Below are positions 47,514-49,673 of a stretch of DNA of 64,000 nt, in pieces. Position 1 is the stretch's first letter, and each line of letters begins with the position of its first letter. The stretch is taken from positions 186,001 to 250,000 of the forward strand of contig NZ_PVBR01000008.1 of assembly GCF_002980495.1 (NCBI RefSeq), written 5' to 3'. The stretch comes from Phyllobacterium phragmitis (GTDB lineage: Bacteria; Pseudomonadota; Alphaproteobacteria; Rhizobiales; Rhizobiaceae). Both the position numbers and the translations under genes were made by a program. The notes below the pieces were generated by a model. That model made no database searches, was not told the origin of the DNA, and was given only the letters and a program-made list of their open reading frames with translations.

Positions 47514-48627
47514 CTATTCGGCTACGTCGATGACGATCTTCCCAAATGCTCCTCGATCTAAATGGTCGAAGGCTGCTGGAAGATCGACCAGAGAATAGCA
47601 AGAATCAACAACAGGGACGATACGTGTCTGATCGATCACTCTACAGCATCGGCCCGAAAATCGGAATCGATTTTCGGAAAGCACGATGCGCAGATTCAAT
47701 AACTTACAGCGTCCTTTGTGCGTCCTAAAGGACGCACGGCGCTGTAGCGAAGCCCTCCAGCGCCGTTCTGCTCCCGGTTCCAATGCCGTGAACAGTTATG
47801 TCCTTGAGCATCAAGGGCATAGCTGGTGCACTGATGTCCCAGCCGTCGAGCGCGCCGATCTGACAGACATGACCGCCAACCGTCGTGACCTGGATGGATT
47901 GCCCGAGATGCTTGCCGCCAATAACCTCCAGGGCGACGTCCACGCCTCGGTCCGAAGTTAACTGGTAGACGGTTTCCATCCAGTCGGTGTCTGCGTCGAT
48001 GAAGTGGTCTGCGCCCTGAGCCTTCGCGCGGCACTCGTATTCAGGTTGACCACAGACGATCACTCTCGCACCGTTAGCTTTTGCGATCTGCATACCGAAC
48101 AGAGCAACGCCGCCAGTGCTCGGGATTAGGACTGTATCGCCAGCTCGGACTCCCGCCCGCTCGACCAGCGCAAACCAGGCCGTGAGGCCAGCCACTGGAA
48201 GTGTGCAAGCCTGCCGGGTAGTCAGTGTCTCAGGTGCCGAGACAAACCAGTCTTCCAGCATCGAGACGTACTCGGCGAGCACACCCGGATAAAAACCACC
48301 CAAAGTCTGATAGGCAGGCGTTCGGGCAGTACCCGCGCGCAGACCGTCGATCCAGTCTGGCGTTGCCGTCGAGATCACGTTCGATCCCAGCCTGAACCGG
48401 GCAGCGCCCTCTCCGAGAGCAACGACTTCACCGGCAAGGTCCGAGCCGGGCGTGAATGGGAACTTGAGAGGAAGTCCGCGCCCTGTCTCGACGACCATCT
48501 TGTCGCGGTAATTCAGCGCGACCGCGTTCACTTTTATCAAAACCTCTTTCGGACCAGGTCTCGGCACCTCGACATCGTTTAGTCTGAGGCGCTGCCTACC
48601 AATTGCATCAATTTCCCAGCGTTTCAT
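47514..48627 (-). pseudogene. Zinc-type alcohol dehydrogenase (QOR-like MDR), split by a 101-bp repeat element
   Basis: From the ATG at 48627 the frame encodes a normal MDR protein (NAVALNYRDKMVV, TPGSDLAGEVVALGEGA, LIPSTGGVALFGMQIAKANGA, LEVIGGKHLGQSIQV) that stops early at 47725 after the foreign residues TAPCVL, 300 residues in all. The missing C-terminus (VIDQTRIVPVVDSCYSLVDL, then PAAFDHLDRGAFGKIVIDVAE) is present in another frame down to 47514. Removing bases 47644-47746 (element plus one TA) restores a single 336-residue frame, with ...EGFA joined to RVIDQ. So an intact gene was broken by insertion. The lost tail holds the last catalytic-domain segment, so activity is doubtful. It is divergent from a LysR gene. 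Confidence 0.9.
47644..47744. mobile_element. RIME-like palindromic repeat element (MITE-like), inserted in a coding sequence
   Basis: The 101-bp element begins CAGC and ends GCTG and is flanked by a duplicated TA (47642-47643 and 47745-47746). It contains two hairpins: CCGAAAATCG/CGATTTTCGG (47654-47663 and 47668-47677) and a longer one in which GTGCGTCC (47718-47725) pairs with GGACGCAC (47730-47737) and TACAGCG (47705-47711) with CGCTGTA (47740-47746). The composition and the TACAGCG...GTGCGTC...GACGCAC...CGCTGTA core resemble the Rhizobium intergenic mosaic element RIME1. It has no coding capacity, so mobility would need a transposase in trans; TA duplication is typical of IS630/mariner enzymes. 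Confidence 0.85.
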
Positions 48628-48681: not shown

Positions 48682-48776
48682 TCTCTCCATCCGTCTTCTG
48701 GCACAGATATGCAGCATGGCGATTGTGATTGAATATGGTATCAATTCGGCATGAGGTATTGCTTTTAAGGATCACA

Positions 48777-49673
48777 ATGGACGGGGCGGAATTTTCCCAA
48801 CTCAAGGCCTTCGTCGCAGTCTGCGACGAGCGGGCATTCGGGCGCGCTGCAAAACGGCTGGCGATATCGCCGTCGGCGCTGAGCCGCACCGTCCGCTCGT
48901 TGGAGAGCCGCCTCGGCATACGCCTCCTCAATCGAACAACGCGCAGTGTCGGTCTGACGGAAGCGGGAAGCATCCTCTACGATCGCATCAAGCCGATGAT
49001 GATGGGGATGGACGAGGCTGTGTCGGCGGTCGGAGCCTATCAGAGTGAGCCGAAGGGCGTGGTTCGTGTCAATCTACCGAGCATTGCCGCGCAGATTGCG
49101 GTCCTGCCAAGACTGCAGCAGTTCCGTCTTGCCTATCCGGAGGTCCGCCTTGATCTCGTGGTAGACAACGATATCACGGATGTCGTTGCAGAAGGTTTCG
49201 ATGCAGGCGTTCGGATTGGCGGGCAAATCAGCCGCGATATGATCGCGGTGCGCATTACCCGCGATCTGCGAATGGCGGTTGTGGGCGCACCCTCGTATTT
49301 TGCCAATCGGCCGCCGCCTCAGGCTCCGGCCGATCTGAAGGACCACTTTTGCCTCACATACAAATGGAAAAGCACTGGAGCCCTGTACCCATGGCGGTTC
49401 GAAGGTGTCGATGGCGTCCTCGATGTTGATGTCGAGAACGTACTGACCATAAACGATACGGAGCTACTGCTTTCAGCGGCTCGTCAGGGGATTGGATTGG
49501 CCTACCTCATTGAGGACCTGGTGGGGCCCTTCGTGGAAAATAAGGAACTCATGCAAGTCCTCGAACCGTTTTGCAAAGTTTTCCCCGGCTTCTACCTCTA
49601 TTATTCGGAACGCTCTCACATGGCCGCATCTGTTCGGGCATTCATCGACTTTATGAAAGTCAGGGGCTTTTAG
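48777..49673 (+). CDS. LysR family transcriptional regulator
   Basis: AAGGA is 7 bp before the ATG at 48777, giving 298 residues; the frame extends upstream into the operator region. HTH: RAFGRAAKRLAISPSALSRTVRSLESRLG; effector domain from about residue 88 (GVVRVNLPSIAAQIAVLP). It is divergent from the disrupted alcohol dehydrogenase, which it probably controls, with 149 bp between the starts. Confidence 0.94.
   Translation: MDGAEFSQLKAFVAVCDERAFGRAAKRLAISPSALSRTVRSLESRLGIRLLNRTTRSVGLTEAGSILYDRIKPMMMGMDEAVSAVGAYQSEPKGVVRVNLPSIAAQIAVLPRLQQFRLAYPEVRLDLVVDNDITDVVAEGFDAGVRIGGQISRDMIAVRITRDLRMAVVGAPSYFANRPPPQAPADLKDHFCLTYKWKSTGALYPWRFEGVDGVLDVDVENVLTINDTELLLSAARQGIGLAYLIEDLVGPFVENKELMQVLEPFCKVFPGFYLYYSERSHMAASVRAFIDFMKVRGF

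Follow-up and report, generated by a model that had tools for sequence, protein, structure and literature searches.

Introduction

RIMEs, reportedly introduced by Osteras and colleagues in 1995 as Rhizobium-specific intergenic mosaic elements, are repeats of Rhizobium-group genomes; a survey of the open-licence literature returned no paper on their target duplication or on IS630-type MITEs in Rhizobium or Sinorhizobium. In work on small RNAs of S. meliloti, RIMEs were handled as intergenic (PMC2573895). CIRs (Chen and Shapiro 2003), known from Caulobacter, Brucella and other Alphaproteobacteria, are described as repeats of about 110 bp with two arms and a linker, one of the arms having GANTC at its loop, and with TA at the termini; in its account of them, a 2007 review enters a question mark for the target duplication, gives the mechanism of mobility as unknown, requests information on mobility, and quotes its author's unpublished work for the statement that CIRs are not found inside genes (PMC2229807). 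The same review describes RUP of Streptococcus pneumoniae, a 107-bp repeat with a TA target, whose 9-bp end repeats closely resemble those of its insertion sequence and tie it to the IS630-Spn1 transposase (PMC2229807). Palindromic repeats of 103 and 106 bp, Bru-RS1 and Bru-RS2, are reported from Brucella (PMC10800456), and GTAG-tagged REPs are palindromes of 20–40 bp, associated with a tyrosine transposase and able to supply TAG stops, in which the tag is part of the repeat (PMC3733652).

Here we consider a repeat in a 64,000-nucleotide stretch of Phyllobacterium phragmitis DNA (the window; contig NZ_PVBR01000008.1 of assembly GCF_002980495.1, positions 186,001 to 250,000). It shares with RIMEs its abundance in Rhizobium-group genomes, and with CIRs the two arms, the linker, a GANTC at the left-arm loop and the TA termini; as the comparison was one of form and not of sequence, both likenesses are to be read as likenesses of form. 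It differs from RIMEs in that the copy in the window lies inside a gene, with its target visible, and from CIRs in that both a target duplication and an intragenic site are seen. Like RUP it is short and uses a TA target, but it shares with IS630 elements its first bases only, and its ends do not come together in a common stem; to Bru-RS1 and Bru-RS2 it is similar by description, and with the GTAG-tagged REPs it has in common that its palindromes can supply TAG stops. How repeats of the RIME/CIR type spread in Alphaproteobacteria was open; filled and empty sites at three loci, compared base by base, now show insertion at TA, and shared first bases together with CTAG as a target suggest a family of enzymes, IS630, that can be put to the test, the weak point being the missing donor.

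Results

A double-hairpin element interrupts an alcohol dehydrogenase gene

On the plus strand, positions 47642–47746 of the window (contig 8 of the assembly) read TA-CAGC...GCTG-TA. A 101-bp element with the ends CAGC...GCTG (47644–47744), delimited by direct reading, repeat search and folding, is framed by a left TA (47642–47643) and a right TA (47745–47746), which direct reading and comparison with empty sites (see below) mark as the two target copies. The left arm is a predicted hairpin (47646–47689) in whose terminal loop a GANTC begins (GAATC, from 47664); a 15-base linker (47690–47704) holding a second GANTC (from 47693) joins it to the right arm (47705–47746), a hairpin bounded by TACAGCG...CGCTGTA that includes the right TA. 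Together with its flanking TAs the element folds into two hairpins at -52.1 kcal/mol, against a mean of -25.8 for shuffled sequences (z = -7.7; none of 200 shuffles equalled it). The consensus fold of 30 copies from the same genome is weak (18 pairs, with 506 of 539 cells paired), and covariation adds no support, with only one pair showing two Watson–Crick types among those 30 copies; GANTC is missing from 8 of them. A Brucella sRNA family of Rfam overlaps the stretch of the element below its cut-off (30.1 vs 59.8 bits).

The element is short, multi-copy and without coding capacity, as expected of a MITE. In its own genome (5.6 Mb) it has at least 42 matches (E <= 0.001), which fall at 40 places because two of the copies, being palindromic, are matched on both strands; these numbers may be an undercount, since 40 of 96 first-look candidates were scored. 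The closest copy, C15:544-648, is 99% identical (1 mismatch in 105) and has flanks unrelated to those in the window, which suggests recent movement. Matches were also found in 374 plasmid records, mostly of Rhizobium and Sinorhizobium.

The interrupted gene lies on the minus strand. Counted from the ATG at 48627 (the listed ORF begins at a TTG upstream) to a stop at 47725, it encodes a truncated zinc-type alcohol dehydrogenase (ADH; 47725–48627; Pfam ADH_N and ADH_zinc_N) of 300 residues, 294 of them native, with the product ending EGFA-TAPCVL. Its detached 3' end, 42 residues reading RVIDQ...IDVAE, was located at 47514–47643 of the same strand from the ORFs, the joined frame and alignment. 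When the flanks are joined with one TA, a single frame of 1011 bp and 336 residues results, MKRWEID...EGFARVIDQ...IDVAE*, which across the joint reads ...EGFARVIDQTRIVPVVDS...IDVAE*. The sequence-only reading of this DNA had proposed just this, namely that a 101-bp double hairpin splits an ADH gene, that its removal with one TA restores the 336-residue frame, and that it adds a TAPCVL tail and an early stop; its coordinates and arithmetic are right, as are the tail and the stop. The insertion costs the enzyme its last 42 residues and adds six, a loss by which its activity is probably harmed and its function may be gone. A RIME/CIR-type repeat, then, can break a gene, not merely sit intergenically. 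Among the 40 copies of this genome, inspected by eye in joined reading frames, no second clear intragenic copy was seen.

A divergent LysR-type regulator (48729–49673, plus strand), recognized from its ORF and by plasmid comparison and named after its neighbours' annotation, lies next to the gene. The ADH–LysR pair occurs also on pRACO34Ad and on an Agrobacterium vitis plasmid, with ADH uninterrupted in both. A chimera of assembly is an unlikely source of the interruption, as both flanks come from one gene.

Filled and empty sites at three loci

Homologs of the ADH (E <= 1e-60) are present in 21 of 199 genomes of the family, our own included, at 15 loci of named genomes and on two plasmids. 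None of 35 ADH loci (one locus, L069 and L089, being counted twice) has a match inside the element. Twelve of 37 ADH loci, picked for closeness and spread, were aligned at base level, and in all 12 the insertion point is gap-free. Three homologs are the closest, at 88–89% DNA identity. In two of them, from Rhizobium sp. Leaf306 (L091) and Rhizobium sp. CFBP 8762 (L089), both at about 88%, the site is CTC-TA-A with a single TA, as against CTC-TA-[element]-TA-G in the window; the third (L090, 89%), which is slightly the most similar of all, and one further homolog (L105) read CTC-TG-A, with TG in place of TA, and more distant homologs have other bases there. The expectation of the sequence-only reading that relatives would carry an empty site with one TA is accordingly borne out by the gap-free alignments and by L089 and L091, though not by L090. 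From the gap-free empty sites and the single TA of these two relatives it follows that the ADH gene gained just the 101 bp and a single TA: the element entered the gene as a unit, with one TA before and two after and no further base change.

The same pattern recurs at two loci of Rhizobium plasmids. At a RidA locus of R. leguminosarum group plasmids, the filled sites (L177, L187) read ...CTC-TAG-CGCATCGG...GCTG-TA-ACGG, and all four empty sites (L183-L186) are gap-free at the joint, two with the stop TAA and two with TGA, that is, with TA in two and TG in two. At a metallo-hydrolase locus, one filled site (L176) was set against five empty ones (L188-L192), of which all five have the TA; three are gap-free and two have a 2-bp gap beside it. 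These four and five empty sites were chosen among the matches listed. At either locus the element has landed on the TA of the gene's stop codon, and the G that follows in the element makes this a TAG again. Insertion at TA, with a single TA as target, is thereby repeated at the RidA and metallo-hydrolase loci, and the earlier proposal that the element moved as a unit, like a TA-specific MITE, holds at the ADH gene and at these two further pairs.

Other copies were less suited to such a comparison. Immediately after copy A (C22:14035; L154:6036-6176) comes a TA-bounded palindrome of 34 bp, and three relatives, in which the flank has diverged, lack both; copy C (C1:356788), compared with same-genus relatives, sits in diverged intergenic DNA. 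For the copy on C12, no syntenic flank pair was found in five same-genus genomes. Compared with five same-genus genomes, one of three copies on C15 was unmatched on one side and another lacked a matching flank pair; the third is shared, the matches in relatives running straight through it. Among the matches listed, both flanks of the copies on a Neorhizobium and an S. mexicanum plasmid were covered by their own record only.

Borders and target preference of the genomic copies

To describe the borders we used the 30 of 40 genomic copies in which both ends were reached, dropping the other 10. A TA stands at the left border in 13, at the right in 21, and at both in 11; among the 17 copies with identities of 86% or more the corresponding numbers are 11, 12 and 9, and older copies often lack the left TA. 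Other copies are flanked by TA pairs, as predicted, in 9 of 17 cases among the more similar ones and in 11 of 30 overall, many of the older ones being without the left TA. In the 11 copies with both TAs, the base before the left TA is C, T or G and the base after the right TA is G or A; the joined site is CTAG in 6 of 11 and YTAR in 9 of 11, compared with 23 (p = 2e-8) and 125 (p = 5e-8), respectively, of the 1238 TAs in the window. Right ends are CAGC in 19 of the 30 copies and GAGC in 7; among left ends GCGC (12) is commonest, followed by CAGC (11), and younger copies mostly have CAGC.

The surplus of right over left TAs (21 vs 13 of 30), together with the base pairing of the right TA in the right-arm fold, would fit an element that carries the right TA as its own and inserts, at or beside a TA, without any duplication. 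For TA targets the two accounts predict the same DNA, and only a non-TA target separates them; however, the youngest copies have both TAs, and at the ADH, RidA and metallo-hydrolase loci (for the last, against 3 of 5 empties) the filled site is longer by exactly the element and two bases, and we consider it quite improbable that the TA pair is anything other than a target duplication.

Target duplications of two bases are characteristic of DDE enzymes and not of tyrosine (HUH) transposases, a difference that bears on another account, in which the arms are REP-like, were moved by a REP-associated tyrosine transposase, and owe the CTAC...GTAG that flanks them to a GTAG tag. CTAC and GTAG are indeed present at the borders of the copy in the window, and GTAG-tagged REPs often give flanking genes TAG stops (PMC3733652). 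In our copies, however, the outer base varies, so that a GTAG tag does not belong to the repeat, and relatives with an empty ADH site already have the base that precedes the TA. The REP account strikes us as highly improbable.

An IS630-family transposase as the probable mover

The account that we hold to be probable is that the element, by form a RIME/CIR-type MITE, entered the gene at TA as a 101-bp unit and was mobilized in trans by a transposase of the IS630 family. It would be a non-autonomous DNA transposon, one of the double-hairpin repeats of RIME/CIR type in Alphaproteobacteria; its entry took place at a TA that stood within CTAG (or CTAA) in the ADH gene, duplicated this TA, shifted the frame and made the protein end after 300 residues; and the enzyme acting on it would most likely be an IS630-family (Tc1/mariner-type DDE) transposase from elsewhere that recognizes the ends TA-[G/C]AGC. 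From the sequence we infer the transposase, its binding in the element, and cut-and-paste or copying as the way of transfer.

The TA duplication in itself points to the IS630/Tc1/mariner group, and an IS630-family transposase studied in vitro inserted almost only into TA, with duplication of the TA (PMC2170065). To characterize the IS630 elements of the Rhizobiaceae, we named 52 loci, left out 10 shorter than 2500 bases, and scanned the remaining 42 DDE_3 loci of the family (top-scoring rather than random) for inverted repeats flanked by TA, in a scan that made no use of the element's own sequence. In 20 of the 42, a repeat pair outscored each of 20 shuffles. Among these 20 elements, 15 carry GAGC at one or both ends (14 of 19 distinct loci, L115 and L123 being one) and 18 are 1020–1090 bp long; the target context is CTAG in 10 and YTAR in 18, and a preference for CTAG is what Tenzen and Ohtsubo reportedly found for IS630 in 1991. 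In control scans, [GC]AGC ends were found in none of 20 IS5-type loci (taken from 23, some of them overlapping; one with clear repeats) and in none of 53 ordinary stretches (three with clear repeats).

The element and the Rhizobiaceae IS630 elements thus both begin TA-[G/C]AGC, the copy in the window ending in CAGC and the IS630 elements mostly in GAGC. The sequence-only reading had suggested looking for a full-length IS630 element with CAGC ends; the TA and the first bases do prove similar, while the family's IS630 elements mostly have TA-GAGC, and copies of the repeat carry both forms. Further inside, the likeness fades. Over the 16 inner positions of the left end the best match to an IS630 end is 6 of 16, no better than chance. 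For the right end the best partner is an IS630-type element of another genome (L111, from G120): the copy in the window agrees with it at 10 of 16 inner positions (509 of 5000 shuffles as good) and a plasmid copy at 11 of 16 (95 of 5000), which after four ends tested amounts to a lead at most. The target and the first bases of the element are in agreement with local IS630 elements, as far as sequence comparison goes, and no end match reaches significance once it extends past the first four bases or so.

The L111 end, AAGCGTGTCGCGTCTTTTCG, shares 14 of 20 bases with the right end of the plasmid copy and is the nearest to a donor, not significant after four ends. In the assembly itself, a search for a donor gave a single DDE_3 match; it falls in a fragment of a different IS630 type, lying where a contig ends, and the terminus of this fragment differs from those of the element. 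IS630-type fragments lie at two contig ends, on C15 (L009:1-410) and C49 (L108), with the end TATTCACCTGAATC as read at the second junction.

The IS427-type group of the IS5 family also uses YTAR/TA targets, and an IS5-family transposase of this type is another candidate that we weighed. In a genome of the same genus, an IS5-type element (L138) sits in CTAG with 20-bp perfect ends, CTAGCGCTCGTGG..., and TA-GCGC is the commonest left end of our copies (12 of 30). A 100-bp MITE of Pseudomonas, assigned to IS5 with a question mark, is moreover described as inserting at CTAG or YTAA; it duplicates 4 bp (PMC3189936), whereas the duplication here is of 2 bp only. The right ends, CAGC or GAGC in 26 of 30 copies, and the younger left ends, mostly CAGC, are unlike GCGC, and clear TA-flanked repeats were seen in only 1 of the 20 IS5-type loci, with [GC]AGC in none, in a scan that misses elements without TA borders. 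On this evidence an IS5-family mover seems unlikely to us, and the IS630 family remains our preferred source of the enzyme. We note in passing that in the same IS5-type element (L138:1298-2389, G003) each of the two end regions (116 and 122 bp) is present as a tandem duplicate.

Separate arms and gene ends

Palindromes that resemble the arms occur in the same genome in other settings: alone, with 48 bp including the TAs (L044); beside a full copy, with 38 bp including the TAs (L154); and in a 77-bp mosaic (L042). They give the element a modular, mosaic palindromic make-up of the kind that the name RIME denotes. The separate occurrence of arm-like palindromes suggests that two TA-bounded palindromes were joined to give the double hairpin.

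A joint reading built on this would have RIME-type repeats consist of two separately mobile arms, with insertion into stop codons tolerated through the end base G. Each arm would be a palindrome bounded by TA-[G/C]AGC...GCT[G/C]-TA and so a minimal transposon for an IS630 transposase; insertion side by side, TA to TA, would yield single arms, double arms and mosaics; and the G at the end would restore TAG, which would explain why the repeats collect at gene ends. We offer this joint reading tentatively, as a possibility that we regard as doubtful rather than improbable. At gene ends, the dihydrodipicolinate synthase gene of Martelella and pbpC of Rhizobium sp. N324, both known from filled sites only, end at the element's left TAG, and the right boundary of a copy likewise provides the stop for three ORFs with 100 residues or more, two in our own genome (L018, L023) and one in a relative (L062). 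At the stop beside one of these (copy B; C22, L023), two relatives (G005 and G002) have TGA, as judged by eye from an alignment gapped nearby; the site of this copy reads CA in the relatives, which tells against a TA target. Counting copies that end in G as a test for stop codons would be circular, because copies with C after the TA cannot form a stop there.

Four copies (L177, L176, L175 and L178) sit exactly at the stops of RidA, metallo-hydrolase, dihydrodipicolinate synthase and pbpC genes, respectively, with TAG supplied. The lone palindrome of C9 (L044:1078-1125) is near-perfect over its 48 bp, bounding TAs included, and resembles the left arm. In copies on C22, C7 and C29 (L023, L034 and L045), one arm has become close to a perfect palindrome and looks like a hairpin in which one side served as the template for the other. 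The genus also harbors other repeats: one on C15 (L155:2015-2212), of about 160–190 bp, is abundant, with at least scores of matches in five same-genus genomes at about 80–91% identity, and a second on C1 (L156:7944-8090), of about 110–125 bp, has many same-genus matches, G001-G004 being among the matches listed.
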